Position numbers and translations under genes: made by a program. DNA of 64,000 nucleotides from Physcia stellaris. Lineage: Eukaryota > Ascomycota > Lecanoromycetes > Caliciales > Physciaceae. The DNA is taken from positions 496,001 through 560,000 of the forward strand of contig JABSSW010000005.1 of assembly GCA_018902385.1 (NCBI GenBank), in the 5' to 3' direction. Numbering within the stretch: position 1 is the first letter of the stretch; each line of letters begins with the position of its first letter. Below the pieces are notes generated by a model, which was given only the letters and a program-made list of their open reading frames with translations, was not told where the DNA came from and ran no database searches. Of this stretch, positions 1-48,712 are shown piece after piece.

Positions 1-967
1 AAAAACAAAAAAAACAAAAGAAATTGGAATTGAACTGACGGAAGTGCCCTCTGCAAAGCAGTCTTTGTCATCGATGGTTTTGCTCTCAGAGAATGATCAT
101 ACAGAGAGTCGATTCTGTTCGAGAGATCGAGTAGAAGTCTAGATTGACATGCCAAAAAGATGTTGCGACTCTAATCTCAGCCGATTACTCACCGCCCTTT
201 CAAATCATCCACTAGACCAATTCACTGTTGTGTAAGTGAGTCGATAGTAAGATTCACTGAGCAAAGCTGTGAATGAAGTCATGTGAATCCGTCCAGCCGA
301 GCCGGCACTTGCCGCGAAAGACATACCTACATTACCTTACTTATTATGGACGGCTTGGCTTTAGTCTTCTCTCTATAGAACACCGACCAACAAAGGCTGG
401 TATGCCTGGACTTAAGATGTCCTGGAGTCTTCATTGCCAACTTAGACCAACAAACCACTAGGTTGTCATCTCAATCAGAATTAGAACGGTGAGAAAGATC
501 CTGGCTGCAAGGCTCTGCATGGCTACCTGGTGCATGTGCTGACGCTTTCGATTTTCAGCACGCATGAAGCTTCCCATTGGGACTGTCTACCTGCCATCGA
601 ACAGAAGTCCATGTGTTTATTTGAATTCTCTGATCATCGAATGTAAGCTGCTCTTTCGTGTTGCCCGATCTCAAGAGTATTGACCGATTCAAGCTTCCAC
701 GCTAAATGCCGACTATGAGTAGAAAATAGCGATCCCTGTCCGCAGCGCTTTACTATCGTCTTGTTGCTGTTCACCGTTTTCATTACATCACTTTGGTTGA
801 TCATCTTTCAGACCTCCTAATCTCAGGCTCAGCAGTCCGGTCGACAGTCCTGCACGCTGACTGTCTTTCCTCATGTATTCCAATATGATGCTATCGCTTC
901 CTGGTAGCTATCCTACCGATGATTTCGATGATGGTGTGTAATCGCCTCTTCTTTGTGACTGATATGA
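1..967. other. Left-edge non-coding stretch
   Basis: No open frame here has recognisable protein character; the short ORFs are compositionally random. The region may hold the promoter and a first exon of the F-box-like gene that follows, since that gene's open frame begins after an in-frame stop at 965-967 and has no ATG of its own. I found no RNA gene or repeat. Confidence 0.4.
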
Positions 968-2091
968 GCTCATGATAGTTCAGGCGCAAGTGATCACAGC
1001 TCGGAGCACAGTGGAGCATACACTTTGGCTCCGGAGTACCCTGAAGGATCTCTCCCAGATCAAAATGGACAGCCACTCGAACCTCAAACCCACCAAACTC
1101 ATCCGAGCTCTTCAATATGCGATCGTCGTTCCTCGGTACCCAGTATCTCCGTGATAAGCGATTGCCGTTCGACGACAGTTGATGAAGGGAGCTATAAGGA
1201 AAAGCTCATCCGTAGAAATGAGATTAGAAACACCGAGAAGGAAGAACTTATCCGTAGAAGTGAGGTCCGGAAGTTTGAAAACACTGAGAAGAAGCAATAT
1301 CGCCATGAGTGGCGACACCGGACTAGCAAAGCGTCGTGAGTCTCTTATCTTCGCCCCTTAGGCTACTGCCTAACATAATGGCGATAGTAAAAGCACAAGA
1401 CTCTCCCTTCTATCACTCCCTGGAGAAATCCGTAATCGGATCTACTCCCATCTCTTCAATGGGGGATTCCTCAAGCTGGATTACAAGCCACTAAGCTACA
1501 CTGAGACGCCAAAGCCTCGGTCGAGGATGTTGAGATTCGGTCTCAACTTGCTCCTTACTTGCTACACGATCGAGAAAGAGATCTGCGACTATGTTTTTGA
1601 CGTCTGCACTTTCTCTTTCTTTTCCGACCAGGCAGTATGGAAGTTCGCTGGTATGGTGCAGGAGGCCAACGTGGCCCGGATCCAGAAGCTTCATCTTGAA
1701 GTTCCCTTGTTCTACAACACCGATGTCCGTAGATGGAGTGAACTGTTTGAGAAAGTCTTACTCACGAAATTCGTCGGCCTGAAGCAAATCATAATCGACT
1801 TGCAGCCTAGGCGTCAAGTATGGGTGGGCAGGCAGCCGACGGCCTTGCAAGAGTGGATTAGTGCTATGAAACCACTGGCAGCAATCAAGGGTCGTACGTT
1901 ACATGTTATGAGCGAAGAAGACCTCTTTTCTAACGTTGCCAGCTGGCGTGTTGATCAATTCAGGAAACATGCAGCTCCGCCGCAAAGAGGAAGCTATACC
2001 TCAACAATACAGGGATTTGTGGCATAAACAGATACAGCAGGCACTGCGTGATGAAACGGTTCGGGTGCGTGCACAATGCGGAAGATGCTAG
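968..2091 (+). pseudogene. F-box-like fungal protein gene, 5' end unresolved, probable frameshift
   Basis: Exon A (open from 968, no ATG seen) ends at 1335; a canonical intron at 1336-1387 (GTGAGT donor, CCTAAC branch, GATAG acceptor) joins it in frame to exon B from 1388. The join gives a stretch LLSLPGEIRNRIYSHLF, the F-box-like start common to large fungal families of unknown role, followed by a conserved-looking region through about 1960 (motifs NLLLTC, WVGRQPTALQEW, NVASWRVDQ). The frame then stops at 2027, but shifting by one base near the AAA run at about 1973 opens a more protein-like tail (QQYRDLWHKQIQQAL) ending at TAG 2089-2091. Exon A is charged, with two copies of an LIRR(N/S)E(I/V)R motif. 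The role is unknown; such proteins often serve as substrate adaptors. It may be a pseudogene, or the sequence may hold an indel error. Confidence 0.5.
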
Positions 2092-2815
2092 TTTTCAATA
2101 GTGATTTGGTTCGAGGAACGAGGAACTGGAGAAGAGTCCGGTGATCACCGAGGCCAATATGTTTTAGGATCACTTGCGTGTGATCCTACCATCAAAATGA
2201 AGAAGTCCAATCCGCTATGTCGCCAGTCCAGAGCTTCAGAATTAGGCGCATAGATGATAGCTACCACCACCATCGCGAGCAAAGTATTCCCATCTCCACG
2301 AGTGAGTTGTACAGCCAGGGTGGGATCCAAGTTTTGATCATCCGCAATCGAAGACGAGTGCGGCTGGACTAAATCTCGAGGTGGTTATTGGCAGAGCATG
2401 AAGATGCTGTCGAGGCTATGTCCTGAAGTCCTGAGCTGGTTTAGCAATCTGACCTCAACCGATTCCCTTACGTCCCCAAATTTAACTCTTTCGGTCCGAC
2501 AGACTGCAGAAACAGAGGTGTCTATGGAGTTGATTGTAAATGTCTGAATACTCCAAACCGAGTACAGCGCCCCTAGCTCTCGTCTCCCATCCGCCGTCTA
2601 CGGTGTCCGAAATTGTACTATCACACCCGATGTCAGCTTACCCACGTTTTTTGTCCCAAGCCAGCCAGATAACATACATCCCTTCAACACAACATTCAAT
2701 AACATCTCCGCTCAAATGCCGTTCTACAGACTATCAAAGGAGCCCTCAAACAAACTCGCTAAACACATCTAGCAAAAACTGACAAACACGCCCACACAAC
2801 AAGATACAATGTTCC
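2092..2815. other. Intergenic, 3' flank of the methyltransferase gene
   Basis: This lies between two converging genes. The only ORF of note, at 2540-2782, is Ser/Thr/Pro-rich with no recognisable feature. It probably holds 3' UTRs. Confidence 0.4.
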
Positions 2816-5700
2816 TTACCCACTCAAACCATCCGCCCTCCTCAGCCCCTCCACTACCTCCCCCAAAATAACCCTCGCCACAACCGGCGGCACCGCATTG
2901 CCAATCTGCTTCTTCACATTCGTTTTTCCGAACCGATGCTCCAACGGGAACCCCTGCAAGCACGCAAACTCCCGATCGGTCAGATCCCGCTGCCCGCTCG
3001 GGTGGATCAGACCCCCTCCTTGCGTGGTGATACATCGGGCTAGCTTGTCCCCGGACTCTGGGGTTCGTGCTCGAGGCCTCGCGTTCTCGACCCTGTGGTT
3101 CGGCCAGTTGGCTGGGATATCGGCGATTGCTTCGTTGATGGTGACCCAAGGCTTCAGCCCGGTTGCAGCAGGATCGGAAGAGTGAGTAGGTGTCGGGAAA
3201 GAGGGAAGAGGCTCGCCGGGGCTTTATATTCTGTGCATTAGCGGAAATACCATCAAGCTTTGGCCTTAAAAGGAGGCAAGAAAGCAAAGGGGCTTACGTA
3301 CCAAGAAGCAATCATAAATACCCGCATCCGCCGCTGCGGCACCCCGTAGTCCGCACAATTGAGGATTCGCCACCGGATGCTAAAGCCCAGCGCGGTGAAC
3401 ATGAGCACCACGGCATTGAAATAGATCTCGTGGCGCCGAAGTAGCCCGGACGTTTGCTCCAGCGTCACCACTCTCGGCCTTGCCTTCTTGATACACTCCG
3501 AGATTGCGAAGAGGGAGGCGGTGTTCATGTCATCGTCTTTCCCCATGACGGTGTGGGCGTCGGAGAAGAATTGGCACGGTGGCGAGAGATGGCAGATATC
3601 GACTTTGAAAGCTCGGGAGGTGATGGCGCAGAAGTCGTGCGCCCAGTGTGGGTACAGGGCGGTGTGGGGGTTGTTCAGAGCGTAAGAGTCGCAGGCGTGC
3701 GCGTTGTAGTCGAAGGCCCAGTCGACGCGGAGGCCGGCTTGGACGGCGCCGCGGGAGACGCCGCCGGCTCCGCTGAAGCAGTCACCGAAGGTGTATCTGC
3801 GTTCCGAAAGTGCCCTGGTATTGAAAGGTTGGGTACTATCTGAAGGCGGTTCGGCGGCTTCTCCGTTGTCCTGTGTTCGTGGTTCGGGAGAGATTGTTTC
3901 TGAAGAATGGTGGAGAATATCTTCATTGGATGCATCTGTTAACTCTGACCTGACCCTCTCAAACGAAACTTGGTGAGATGCGATGTCTCTACTCGAGTCT
4001 CTGCAATGCCTTGGGCTTTCATTTTCTAGTTTGGTCCTGACTCTCTTGGATTGATCTGCAGGTCTGCCCTCTGGACGCTTGCGTTTACTTGAGGCAGAAT
4101 GGCGTGGAACAAAATTTCTCGTGACTTGACCAGAGTATTCCTTCTGCACGGTGTCCAGTCTGGTGCTGGTCTTGATGTACGCATCAAGATCAATTACCTC
4201 GGCTGAGCCATTTTCCGAAGATCTTGCGAAAGTATTCATTCCGTCAAGGGTTTGTCTTGATGGTATGTCTGACCGGTCACCCGGCGATGAATCCAGAGCG
4301 CTATCAGTCAAGTCTATAAAGACCTTCCTAGCTTTCTGAGTAGGATTGGGTATCTCGACCAGCTCATCATGCGATTGGGAGGATGAGGTATCCAGTCTTC
4401 CAAGACCAGTAGTCACAGAAGCGATGCTGTCGCTGTCTGAGGACTGATCAGAGAGCACACTGTGTCCGGCCGTGGCGCGGAGGTCGTCTTGACGCTGATA
4501 TTCTTGTTGTCTGAAATGTTTCTCATCTGCCGAAACAATAGCACATGCTCCTCCCTTTTCTGTCGGCCCTCTCCAATCATACCGCAGTTGCTCATCGGTT
4601 TTAGCTAGCAAAGGATCACATTCGTCAGCGCGAAGCCGCTGTAGAGACTTCTCAGACCATCTGTTCTGCTCCCGCATCTTCGCATTTGCGTAAGAGCAAA
4701 TATATTTGAAGCGGCAGACCAATACTCGTTCGTTCAAGATGATCTTTTCGCTGTCCCTTACGCTGTCCTCTCGTAAACTGAATGCGGGAAACGCTTGATT
4801 CGTAAGTCGTATCTTTCTTCTTTTTACAACTTGTGTAACAGGTACAGACTGTATGGCTCGGACGTTGTCATCCCGTGTGTCATCTTCGTCGACGTGCAGA
4901 ATCCAGCAGAGCTCATTGTATTTCCTCTCCAGAATGCCGTTCAATTCCTTAGTTCTGCGGAATATCCAGCCGCGTAGATGGACAGCCCCCGTATCAGATT
5001 TCATGATGACGTCCACGATCCTCATGAAGTCCCCGTCGTTGAGCTCTACATTCGCTTTTGGATTCACCTTTATGCCTTTATGAATGTATTCTGACAGCCT
5101 GGTTTCGTGCTGGTGAGTGATTTTGCTGCGAACGCTTTCCTTGGTAGAGAAGTCCTCTGTTGAAGGGCCATCGGCATAGCTTTCCGTAAAGTCTATTGGA
5201 TACTTTGGTTGGCTCGTGTGGGCTGATTCAGACCTTCGGAAGAATTGGTTGGCAGCTCTTGAGCCATGGAATGTGGGCTTAGAAAACGGACTAGCTCCAC
5301 TTGCCCACTGACTTGGCGAGGAGTAGGCGACCAGTGGATCTATGTCATTTCCTGGTGGCTTTGTGCGGGAACGATAGTATTGTTCGTTGGCTGGTAGCGA
5401 TGAAGCTGAGGATCTCAAAGCACGCTCCTCGGATTGCAGATTGGTAACAGGGCTGATTATTCTAATCTCATCTTGGCAGACCTCTCTTGTTCTAAGATTT
5501 GATTTTGGATTCTGAGTCGCTGGTAGCTGGCTCCTTGGGGGACGACTTGGGCTGATTTGAGAGGTAGCAATATGGAATGTGGATCGCTGTGACAAACAAA
5601 AACTCGCTAATGAGTCGTCAGCAAAGTAGTCTGGTTTGAGGCTGGGTGATTGGCCTTGGAGCCGCTTTACCTTCTTGCGTTGTCTGAGTAGAATCCTCAT
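2816..5700 (-). CDS. rid: Masc1/RID-type C5 cytosine DNA methyltransferase
   Basis: The predicted 934-residue enzyme transfers a methyl group from S-adenosylmethionine to cytosine in nuclear DNA. Exon 1 runs 5700-3302, an 80-nt intron 3301-3222 (GTACGT donor), and exon 2 3221-2816. The intron join yields MIAS-CPGEPLPSFP, which restores a smooth reading. Catalytic motifs are in order: I FSGAGG (about residues 641-646), IV SPPCQ with the nucleophilic Cys (about 705-709), VI as EQT (about 747-749) instead of the usual ENV, VIII near CADYGVPQRRMR, IX LTDREFACLQGFP and X QIGNAVPP. EQT is, as I recall, the hallmark of the Masc1/RID family required for RIP or premeiotic methylation. Residues about 205-345 look like a degenerate BAH module; 370-630 is charged and probably disordered. 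All key residues are present, so it appears functional. The start at 5700 is the first ATG after an upstream stop; an extra 5' exon is possible. Confidence 0.93.
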
Positions 5701-45221: not shown

Positions 45222-45226
45222 CGGCC
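45222..45226. repeat. Target-site duplication, left copy (CGGCC)
   Basis: CGGCC directly precedes the left LTR and is repeated at 48708-48712 directly after the right LTR. A 5-bp duplication is what an LTR-retrotransposon integrase makes. Both are followed by AG, so a 6-bp reading (CGGCCA) is also possible. Confidence 0.8.
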
Positions 45227-45447
45227 AGAAAAGAGGATAATTAGCACAGTGGCAGGAGGTCACAATCGAGGCCCAATAGAGTCAATTATCGAACGTATTG
45301 CTCCTGGTGTAAGGTGTGTGGATTATGACTATCTAGGAGGGTGCTACAGGCGGTTTTGTAGAAGACCGAATGCCAAGCATATAAGGCTAGTCACGTGCAA
45401 CTCGCTTAATGGGCCAATAGCCAGTTTCCTGTTACTCCCCTCCAACA
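45227..45447 (-). repeat. 3' LTR
   Basis: Identical over its whole length to 48487-48707. On the minus strand it begins TGTTGGAGG and ends CTTTTCT. It overlaps an apparent 70-codon ORF that simply reads through the LTR. Confidence 0.9.
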
Positions 45448-45459
45448 GCTCCCTCTCAT
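45448..45459 (-). other. Polypurine tract of the retrotransposon
   Basis: ATGAGAGGGAGC on the minus strand lies directly before the 3' LTR, the required place for plus-strand priming. Confidence 0.75.
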
Positions 45460-45739
45460 AGCAAGGTGCTGCCCCCAGCACCACCTCACTAAACCATCTC
45501 CCACCAGGCAGCATAGATCCCCTAACGCATGGCAATATTGACACCGAAAACCAGACCAAATAGACCACGTTGTACGCCGGGAGAAAGGAGATTCGTAAAA
45601 CAGATATCGGAGAATGCCGAGAATCCATAGAAGTAGGGCTTTACCCTCGTCGCAATTGCATGGTATCAACTGACTGCTCTGAAGGCCCGAAATGCCGAAA
45701 TGGTATGCTGGTTCGAAGACCTTGGATTTGCACGTTTTG

Positions 45740-45960
45740 AAGCCTTGCGCATTGCCGGAAAACAGGGCCGTTTTGTATGCGAAAACAACAGATATCCCAG
45801 ATGTGTTGGCGGTTGTTGACATGCCCGAGGAAGTGACCATTTTGCATGCGCATCCTGCAATTATTTCGAGATTTCTAGCCGTTGTCGGAGTGCCAGAGAA
45901 CAGGGCAAATTTGTATGCGTATCGTGCAAATATCCCAGCAACGGTTATACTTCTTGATTC
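45740..45960. repeat. Degenerate repeat of about 70-75 bp in the retrotransposon 3' region
   Basis: On the plus strand, three diverged units each encode a (L/M/V)PE-x-x-A/T-x-LYA/HA-like stretch followed by an IP.../FLAVV... segment, 23-25 residues apart. The unit is visible at the DNA level too (CAGGGCC...TTGTATGCG; CAGGGCA...TTGTATGCG). Its role is unknown. Confidence 0.55.
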
Positions 45961-46153
45961 GATATGCTCCGGCCCCTATACGGTCTTTATTTTCACCTTC
46001 GGCAGCCCCTTATGCTTCGGCTTCGGGGCCAGGTCCACAATAGAGCTCAGAAGTGACATCCGAGCAGGGTTATTCGTAGTATTGACCAGGCCAGCGGTCA
46101 GAGTGGGCGCATCCGTATCCACAACAACAGCAGTAACAGCATCAACAGTATCA

Positions 46154-47707
46154 TCAACAGAGGAGCACAAAGACTGCTCCCCCATAGAAGTCGGTATCCA
46201 CGGTATCCACGGTCTTGGCGGTCTCGATAGAATCAAGCGTGACATCTGCAGTGATAAAAGCGACACCCGAGGCAGAAGTACAGGTAGAAACCGAAGATAT
46301 GCTAGAGCCGATAGGTATAGTGGACGAACGACTCCAGACAAATGAGGGTGTTTCGACATCGGTTGTATAGGCCTCGAAGTCGATCTCAAGACTGAGGTCG
46401 AAAGCAGGGAGCGCAGGTAGTTCGTAGACAGAATGGGCCGAATCAGAAGCCTCCTCTGTTGTCTCCGAGTCCTCGGTTTGCTGTATTGACGGGTTTTTCG
46501 AAGTTGCACCCATTGCAGTACCAGAATCAAAAGCCTCAATAGCAGGACCATCCATGTCCATGAGATGCTTGGGAGACGGCATATCCATTGCGACCGAGAT
46601 CTCCAGATCCTCGGGGGATAATGCGGGCGGGTTTTTCGAAAATGCGTCATACATAGCAGCCAATGCAAAAACCTCCTGATTCAGGACCTCCATATCAACA
46701 GTGCAGCAACGACTCCAGCCAAATGAGTTATCCGACGCTGATTCGGTATCGGATGCGGGCGGGTTTTTCAAAGCCTCGTCAGATGTACTAGTATAACCAA
46801 AAACCTCCATTCTAGCAGGGGCAATCCATTTGCCAGGCCCTGAAGCAAGAATCTCATCGGTTGACTCAATGTCACTGGTATCCACGATACCATTGATCTC
46901 TGGTAAATCGCACGGCATTTGCTCCAAAACAGACGGAGACTCGTTGACAACAGGGATTTCGGGTAACGTTGGAGTGAGCGCAGGCCATTTGCGAGGCCCA
47001 GAAGTAAGAATCTCGTCCATTGCTCCGGTATCACTAGAATCCACGGCATCTGCACTGGTCTCCGACATTTCAGGCCGTATTTGCTCCAGAACAGGCGGAG
47101 ACTCGTCAACAGAACTGGTATCGAGTAACGGCTTTGGCAGGCTCTTAGGGGCGATGGTCCATTTGACGGATTCTGAAGCAGTAGGCTTTGCGGGGGTCTC
47201 GGTATCCGTGATATCCACAGCTTCATTGATCTCCTTCAGAATAGGTTGCTGTTCCTCCAGAATAGACTGAGACTCGTAGAGTTTCTGGGTTCGAACAGTA
47301 GAGACACCATTAACGAGACCAATATCAACGAATTCCTGGAGTTGTTGCAAGGCCACTTGATACTCCATCTGAAGTTTTCGCTCCTTTTTCTGACGAAGTT
47401 TCCGTTCCTCCTTCAGCATCTTTCGCTCTGCAATGATGTATGCATCGAACAGATTCTTGACAGGTTTGTTTGCAAGATAATCGAAAAGCCTTGTGCTCTT
47501 GACCCCTTTGATCCACTTCTCGATGACAAAAGCTAGCCATATCAACTCTCCTTCAGAAAGCGTAACATCTTTCGTTTTATCCCTGTAGCCAAGCTCAACA
47601 ATAAAGGAGTTGTTGGTGCGCTCATAGTATTCCCGAATAGACTCCTTGCCTTGTTCTAGATTGCGGACCTTGTTTATCACATCGTACTGTGGTAAAATCG
47701 GCTTCAT
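46154..47707 (-). CDS. Gag-like protein of the LTR retrotransposon
   Basis: I start at the ATG giving MKPILPQYDV, giving 517 residues; the open frame extends a few codons upstream without an ATG. The first 150 residues resemble a retroviral-type gag/capsid region of fungal elements: NLEQGKESIREYYERTN, SEGELIWLAFVIEKWIKGV, LFDYLANKPVKNLFDAYI, followed by a basic coiled-coil (KEERKLRQKKERKLQMEY). The next part has about three diverged repeats of 60 residues, each ending near a G-P-x-K-W motif (TSGPRKWPAL, ASGPGKWIAP) and containing (V/I)NE/DESP-x-VLEQ. The rest is acidic and Ser/Thr-rich. No CCHC zinc knuckle is visible. The protein presumably packages the element's RNA into particles supplied with pol from an autonomous relative. 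Confidence 0.75.
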   Translation of the reverse strand: MKPILPQYDVINKVRNLEQGKESIREYYERTNNSFIVELGYRDKTKDVTLSEGELIWLAFVIEKWIKGVKSTRLFDYLANKPVKNLFDAYIIAERKMLKEERKLRQKKERKLQMEYQVALQQLQEFVDIGLVNGVSTVRTQKLYESQSILEEQQPILKEINEAVDITDTETPAKPTASESVKWTIAPKSLPKPLLDTSSVDESPPVLEQIRPEMSETSADAVDSSDTGAMDEILTSGPRKWPALTPTLPEIPVVNESPSVLEQMPCDLPEINGIVDTSDIESTDEILASGPGKWIAPARMEVFGYTSTSDEALKNPPASDTESASDNSFGWSRCCTVDMEVLNQEVFALAAMYDAFSKNPPALSPEDLEISVAMDMPSPKHLMDMDGPAIEAFDSGTAMGATSKNPSIQQTEDSETTEEASDSAHSVYELPALPAFDLSLEIDFEAYTTDVETPSFVWSRSSTIPIGSSISSVSTCTSASGVAFITADVTLDSIETAKTVDTVDTDFYGGAVFVLLC

Positions 47708-48471
47708 GATGGTGATACTAATTGATACAGGAACAACTCCAGCCAAATGAGTGAACAGACTACCTTGTCGAGTCCTGAATCAGAATGCCGAAGCCGAGAC
47801 CTGAAGCAGAGTGCCGAAAGAAGTGAGCAGACTATTGAGGCCGAGTTCTGAAGAAACTATCGAAGCCAAGTCCTGAAGCAGGATGCTGAGACCATTGCGA
47901 ACGAATACAGGCCGACTGTCTTCTTGACAAAAGGTACACACTCTGCCCGCTAATCTTGTACCATGAACGAAGTACCCCGGTCAAGCACCGAGTATTGACG
48001 TGATCCCGGAAATGATAGAAGCGCTCGCACGGATATCGAGGTCGCTTGTGGATAATGCGCTTTGACTGAGTCGCTTCAGAGGCCCAGCCAGGCCAATAAT
48101 AGCAGTCCTTCGTAACCGCTCTTCCTCAATATCCGTAATGAGGGCCCAAGCATCCGGTATAGGGGTATGCCTGGTGTTTTGCTTGCAAACGTGCAAGAAA
48201 TGCTGCTGCGAAAGGTACTGCGGAGTTAACAAACCGAGTATGTCCGAAATCGAGAGCAGAGAGTACAACGTGCTGGCTAAGACTACCCGTCAATTATAAG
48301 CCGTATGGAGTTGGAACTTCGCCGTTCAATAGTAATAGTATAGAGGACTTCGCCGTCCGAAAAGATAGACTGTCCGTAGCCTGGTTGTTGTGTAATAAAG
48401 GAGCTCGATTCTGCTGTCTCAAAGGGTGAACAGTGGGCGGCCAACGGCGACCCTTACTGCCAGTCGTCCTT

Positions 48472-48487
48472 CCGAGAATGGGCACCA
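48472..48487 (-). other. tRNA primer-binding site
   Basis: Directly after the 5' LTR the minus strand reads TGGTGCCCATTCTCGG. Its complement ends in CCA and parses as a tRNA 3' end: T-stem CCGAG, seven acceptor bases AATGGGC, discriminator A, CCA. The tRNA species was not identified; its 5' end should begin GCCCATT. Confidence 0.75.
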
Positions 48488-48707
48488 GAAAAGAGGATAA
48501 TTAGCACAGTGGCAGGAGGTCACAATCGAGGCCCAATAGAGTCAATTATCGAACGTATTGCTCCTGGTGTAAGGTGTGTGGATTATGACTATCTAGGAGG
48601 GTGCTACAGGCGGTTTTGTAGAAGACCGAATGCCAAGCATATAAGGCTAGTCACGTGCAACTCGCTTAATGGGCCAATAGCCAGTTTCCTGTTACTCCCC
48701 TCCAACA
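48487..48707 (-). repeat. 5' LTR
   Basis: Identical to 45227-45447, offset 3,260 bp. It is expected to hold the element's promoter. Confidence 0.9.
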
Positions 48708-48712
48708 CGGCC
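48708..48712. repeat. Target-site duplication, right copy (CGGCC)
   Basis: Matches 45222-45226 exactly and abuts the end of the right LTR. Confidence 0.8.

Follow-up and report, generated by a model that had tools for sequence, protein, structure and literature searches.

The lichen-forming ascomycete Physcia stellaris carries, on contig JABSSW010000005.1, a long terminal repeat (LTR) retrotransposon that has all the cis-acting signals of its kind, a single gag open reading frame (ORF) and no pol. It lies on the minus strand at positions 45222-48712 of the 64,000-nucleotide stretch that we analysed (the window; C5:496001-560000 in our contig numbering). We assign a probability of roughly 85% to the reading that it is a recent, non-autonomous element of the TR-GAG-like type, mobilised in trans by 8-kb Ty3/gypsy-like elements and packaged in particles of two-lobe Gag. 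A first-pass annotation had described a recently moved gag-only element of the TR-GAG class with an autonomous partner in the genome; class and recent movement stand, and its accounts of the primer-binding site (PBS), the gag ORF and the partner are amended below. Our searches covered 43.97 Mb in 147 contigs; the published assembly comprises 46.57 Mb in 184 scaffolds, about 2.6 Mb of which lay outside the sequence searched.

Anatomy of the element and its LTR family

Raw direct repeats at 45225-45447 and 48485-48707, 100% identical, trim to two 221-bp LTRs that agree at all 221 aligned sites, just as the first-pass annotation had them. The LTR reads TGTTGG...CTTTTCT and so ends in TG..CT rather than TG..CA, a boundary that is fixed because the duplications of other copies fall at the same LTR ends. 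Both the CGGCC target-site duplication (TSD) and the polypurine tract (PPT) of the earlier account are in place, and the strand can now be added (Table 1). The absence of any difference over 221 bp agrees with recent movement, though LTR identity only bounds the insertion age, at less than about 0.7 million years for an assumed rate of 1e-8 changes per site per year or 6.8 million years for 1e-9. The leader contains short imperfect repeats, and the gag ORF reaches 530 aa if started at an upstream TTG.

The reported lack of pol also held. Four ORFs of the element, gag among them, gave no Pfam match to reverse transcriptase (RT), protease or integrase and nothing else above cut-off, and genome-wide lists for RVT_1 and RVT_2, in which the best 150 candidates were scored, held no match at the element. 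Two LTRs with a TSD, a PBS and a PPT, a gag domain as the sole coding capacity and no pol domains together correspond to a TR-GAG element.

The LTR has at least 41 matches in the genome. Seven elements with both LTRs were aligned (C5, which is the window element, C11, C26, C37, C32, C73 and C57), and six have an exact 5-bp TSD; that of C32 has one difference and sits at the same LTR ends. A further copy, C10, is flanked by CTCTT on both sides. We fetched 30 LTR loci, 17 of which look solo, and among these an exact 5-bp TSD was present at the predicted ends in nine and a TSD with one mismatch in three. Given this number of LTR matches and the recurrence of 5-bp TSDs at the same LTR ends, chance is excluded as the origin of the element. 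The 221-bp repeat might have proved to be an unrelated dispersed repeat without linked gag; instead, gag copies are linked to it at several other loci. This LTR family has full-length gag-only copies at C11/C37, C26 and C32, whose gag frames span 605-630 aa; the gag-only copy at C73 is decayed, and gag relatives number 35 genome matches. No source copy for the window element is visible among the matches listed, in which the best other LTR (95% identical, solo-looking) is at C6.

We had considered C11:21928 and C37:498182 as two insertions, but they share both flanks and the TSD TGAGT and hence represent one insertion in a duplicated segment. The segment (C11:21500-25800 and C37:497800-502000) lies near the ends of two contigs and is perhaps subtelomeric. 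Related gag-only-type frames with different capsid heads occur at C16 (1089 aa), C72 (1036 aa) and C11:541k (775 aa), and recombination between families seems to have shuffled their heads and tails. C72 also has a pair of 223-bp direct repeats, 98% identical in a self-comparison, which may be its LTRs.

Table 1. Features of the window element (positions in the window).
Feature	Position	Strand	Basis or remarks
Whole LTR retrotransposon	45222-48712	minus	both LTRs, TSD, PBS, PPT, one gag ORF
5' TSD, CGGCC on the plus strand	48708..48712	minus	repeat search and alignment of copies
5' LTR, 221 bp, sense TGTTGGAG...CTTTTCT, ends TG..CT	48487..48707	minus	
PBS, 18 nt	48470..48487	minus	complementary to the 3' end of tRNA-Thr(CGU) plus added CCA
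Untranslated leader	47708..48469	minus	5' part common to the 8-kb RT-bearing elements
gag ORF, 517 aa from ATG	46154..47707	minus	C-lobe and long predicted-disordered tail; without N-lobe and zinc knuckle
Capsid C-lobe, Gag residues 1 to ~125	47333..47707	minus	structure model, fold comparison, homology
gag tail frameshift relative to copies C26 and C32	46176..46184	minus	inside a homopolymer run
3' untranslated region with diverged internal repeats	45460..46153	minus	
PPT, sense GAGAGGGAG	45449..45457	minus	one base from the 3' LTR
3' LTR, identical to 5' LTR	45227..45447	minus	
3' TSD, CGGCC	45222..45226	minus	

Primer tRNA and the 8-kb partner elements

The PBS had been parsed as a tRNA 3' end, and it matches one: its sense sequence, TGGTGCCCATTCTCGGAA, pairs with the 3' 18 nt of tRNA-Thr(CGU), added CCA included, so that its length is 18 nt and not the 16 first given. 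The tRNA gene is nuclear (about C22:424646-424744) and has a 27-base intron, and a default tRNA scan without intron handling misses it. Outside the elements, the PBS 13-mer occurs at four places, of which this gene is the only tRNA; there is no tRNA at the other three. A modified A at tRNA position 58 usually stops reverse transcriptase, and the pairing ends just before that position. The first base of the PBS doubles as the final base of the 5' LTR, a T that solo LTRs retain; this suggests that the integrating DNA finishes with the base templated by the terminal A of the tRNA.

With transitions allowed, the PBS pattern was found at 31 places in the genome, compared with none for a reversed control. 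Eleven are at known gag-bearing copies and 20 elsewhere. Two places that match the PBS with one mismatch, on C1 and C3, were rejected as retrotransposons, since no family LTR precedes either site and the surroundings are host-gene-like; by eye, they resemble branching-enzyme and rhomboid genes.

Four of the 20 further places were looked at (C33, C34, C43 and C57), and all four have the family LTR and leader followed by a different gag region. The C57 element measures 7,987 bp, is flanked by TTTAG duplications and has the same LTR ends, with an LTR identity of 0.789. Its order is capsid lobes, CCHC knuckle, an RT piece with the motif YIDDIF, RNase H (PF17917, E 2.2e-11; PF17919, E 2.7e-8; both above cut-off) and an integrase-like piece. 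RT lies 4,400-4,418 bp after the PBS in C33, C43 and C57, and the C33 RT piece has 25 genome matches. The partner anticipated by the first-pass annotation is thus half borne out: the LTR ends, PBS and leader recur in an 8-kb element that also has RNase H and RT motifs, yet all the copies seen carry mutations. An RVT_1 match at C33:318174 was rejected as the RT of the partner, whose own RT is nearer. The match is part of another gypsy element, which carries a CCHC Gag and an RT of its own and is nested downstream in the C33 copy (positions 1-4500 of the fetched locus).

These partners resemble Ty3/gypsy elements in their 5-bp duplications and in a Gag with two capsid lobes and a CCHC knuckle, and apparently also in the succession of RT, RNase H and integrase, of which RNase H is recognised by Pfam and the other two by motif. 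Open relatives of the partner Gag are present among ENA sources (P0034-P0036, 746-849 aa, 71-78% identical). Between the partner Gag and that of the gag-only family, homology extends across both lobes (hhalign E 7.9e-24, one comparison), whereas the window element lacks enzymes and zinc knuckle and has TG..CT LTR ends. Identity between gag-only and partner elements is about 71-85% for LTR and leader DNA and about 18-34% for the Gags, a divergence that indicates an old gag-only lineage rather than a fresh deletion.

C-to-T decay of the family

Decay in these elements consists of C-to-T changes; both strands are affected, and the base before the C has no consistent influence. In the pooled LTR pairs of C32, C73 and C57, the change was seen at 64/69 CpC and 52/94 CpT sites, and at 2/96 CpA and 0/34 CpG sites. 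Set against C73, the undecayed leader of the window element gave 64/88 for CpC, 44/99 for CpT, 6/83 for CpA and 10/83 for CpG. When decayed 8-kb copies were compared over their whole length, the proportion of differing sites was 0.04-0.16 for CpA and CpG and 0.74-0.95 for CpT. Observed/expected ratios in the 8-kb element are 0.09 for CpC, 0.19 for CpT, 3.18 for CpG and 0.39 for TpA; the nested, different gypsy element is alike (0.00, 0.36, 3.05 and 0.40, respectively). Within RT copies (16 entries, 5-20, of the genome RT list), 28 of 32 stops are TGA, as expected if tryptophan codons are their main source.

Canonical repeat-induced point mutation (RIP) changes C to T mainly at CpA, and the decay of these elements does not follow that pattern. 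In the available part of a survey across the fungal kingdom, RIP-like defences have a CpA preference in common (PMC12543289), and the available parts of two other papers give alignment counts with strong CpT-to-TpT change beside CpA (PMC2621366, PMC7882544). Since CpT changes are published, they are not new in themselves; the unusual part is decay at CpC with CpA and CpG spared. We found no report of decay at CpC and CpT with both of these spared in the passages and listings of literature on context-dependent decay that we consulted. The standard RIP composite index, which is built on CpA loss, is lower for the heavily mutated 8-kb element (-1.12) than for the undecayed window element (-0.47), and such decay would therefore be missed by it.

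A C5-cytosine DNA methylase gene lies in the same window (2855-5700, minus strand; PF00145, E 4.8e-29) and is a natural candidate with respect to the decay pattern. It is possibly of the RID/Masc1 type. The genome holds three such loci, this gene included; at another, C6:791557-792528, the reading passes two TGA codons, which may reflect introns or decay.

The truncated Gag and the probable route of mobilisation

The ORF that had been called gag-like is indeed homologous to Gag but encodes a truncated version, made up of the capsid C-lobe followed by a tail; compared with sister copies, it carries a frameshift at its 3' end. The C-lobe was assigned by homology to P0008/P0010 and by fold comparison; against Pfam Retrotrans_gag the window Gag scores 13.5 bits, below cut-off, and its relative P0020 scores 26.0 against a cut-off of 24.1 bits. 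We collected 33 distinct gag-only-type proteins from the database (27 from one search and six from a further one), most of them from ENA sources. Both lobes are present in 24 (three with a partial N-lobe), the C-lobe only in four (P0007, which is the window protein, P0028, P0029 and P0030) and neither lobe in five, and a CX2CX4HX4C knuckle in none of the 33. In P0008 and P0010, the last ~110 residues form a hydrophobic stretch and then a basic tail (..KHKGLPKVKIK), at the place of the zinc knuckle in other Gags. The C-lobe-only form is found at the window and three other loci, and in three database proteins that start at or before the C-lobe; this recurrence argues that it is an old lineage.

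We propose that the LTR promoter makes an RNA to which tRNA-Thr(CGU) would anneal at the 18-nt PBS, priming being suggested by the tRNA match. RT, RNase H and integrase would be supplied in trans by the 8-kb elements that share LTR ends, PBS and leader, and integration would yield the 5-bp duplication. Because the window Gag is C-lobe-only, we reason that it is probably unable to form a normal capsid alone; the RNA would most likely be packaged in particles of full two-lobe Gag, supplied either by the partner or by sister copies of the gag-only type.

Several observations weigh against this scheme. The searched assembly yielded no intact partner: the nine nearest RT copies are interrupted by stops or stay open for no more than 128 aa, and three copies with longer frames (165-213 aa) reach only 41-45% identity. 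With all partner copies seen decayed, a source of enzymes for the recent jump is not evident among them, and an intact copy may lie in sequence outside the search (the ~2.6 Mb, or the other 16 of the 20 further PBS places). RVT_1 gave no match on the partner RT pieces, Retrotrans_gag was sub-threshold on window and partner Gags alike, and the RT and integrase pieces of the partner were recognised by eye from motifs. For the C-lobe itself, fold scores are near the chance level for helical bundles, a Foldseek search gave no match at E <= 0.001, and transversion ratios for the ORF are inconsistent (0.20, p 0.013, against C15; 1.55 against C10; 0.78 against C9).

The decayed state of the partners would also suit mobilisation by some other intact LTR element, such as one with an open Ty3/gypsy or Copia frame, and RT frames of other families are indeed open over 1,024-1,624 aa (C5:1166521, C12:60312, C8:902437, C42:398640 and C7:889944). 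However, neither this type of PBS nor the family LTR was seen near those frames among the matches listed, and we regard such a mobiliser as unlikely. Even less credible, to the point of being very improbable, is a simple deletion derivative, formed when the partner recently lost internal sequence but kept gag. The LTR ends, PBS and leader found in both, like the 3' sequence that the decayed gag-only C73 has in common with the C57 partner, would fit it; yet the Gags are far more divergent than the LTR and leader DNA, and the gag-only proteins are diverse, come from further sources too and uniformly lack the knuckle, which makes the split old. Trans-mobilisation by the 8-kb elements is the probable route.

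A separate question is what the C-lobe-only protein does, and here we see even odds that it does nothing, the ORF being a passenger whose RNA rides in the particles of others. The ORF differs from its sisters at both ends, with the N-lobe absent and the tail frameshifted, although the LTRs of the element are identical; the tail frameshift, however, could be an assembly error, since it sits in a homopolymer run. Selection on the C-lobe form was not detectable, in contrast to the moderate constraint on two-lobe heads in the two pairs tested (dN/dS, the ratio of nonsynonymous to synonymous change, of 0.32 for C32/C26 and 0.37 for C37/C11); for whole gag ORFs the ratio is 0.44-0.63 over 10 pairs. 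It speaks against a mere passenger that the truncated form is kept at four loci and in three database proteins, when an ORF of no use should have disappeared or been shuffled. Alternatively, the protein may be an active regulator resembling Ty1 p22, which would co-assemble with full Gag and limit or redirect the particles, a mobile capsid restriction factor riding in them. According to the available part of one source, p22 arises from an alternative transcript of Ty1 itself (PMC4599808). The window protein is like p22 in being a Gag C-lobe without N-lobe, and, as far as the passages available go, Ty1 p22/p18 and Drt2 (PMC10951436; PDB 7nlg, 9rxy) likewise are C-lobe-containing parts of Gag. 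It differs in being encoded by a separate mobile element, with a long tail of its own. Its fold matches these no better than other capsid C-lobes, and because CpC/CpT decay seldom makes stops, a long open frame says little about function. As the transversion counts give no consistent constraint, we favour the passenger over the regulator, which we consider doubtful.

TR-GAG elements of plants were reportedly treated by Chaparro et al. in 2015. In the available parts of two papers, they consist of an LTR pair, a PBS, a PPT and one gag ORF, lack pol and are short (PMC4608283, PMC12477816). The window element is alike in each of these respects and differs in its lichen-fungal host, in a Gag cut to C-lobe and tail and in its primer, tRNA-Thr(CGU); a further difference is that degraded elements bearing RT, with these LTR ends and this PBS, are identified here in the same genome. 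No fungal TR-GAG was found by title or abstract opening in the open-licence literature, a check outside which lies PMC4112212 (Cochliobolus; 'gag' and 'non-autonomous'). We conclude that the window element belongs to a known, TR-GAG-like type and stands apart in its C-lobe-only Gag. More tentatively still than the regulator on which it builds, the lineage could be a self-spreading counterpart of p22, with a C-lobe Gag as its only gene, that rides in and modulates the two-lobe particles of its relatives. A fungal gag-only element, its primer tRNA and decayed RT-bearing relatives are now known together, and trans-mobilisation becomes testable; to this is added an old sublineage in which Gag is kept only as the capsid C-lobe.

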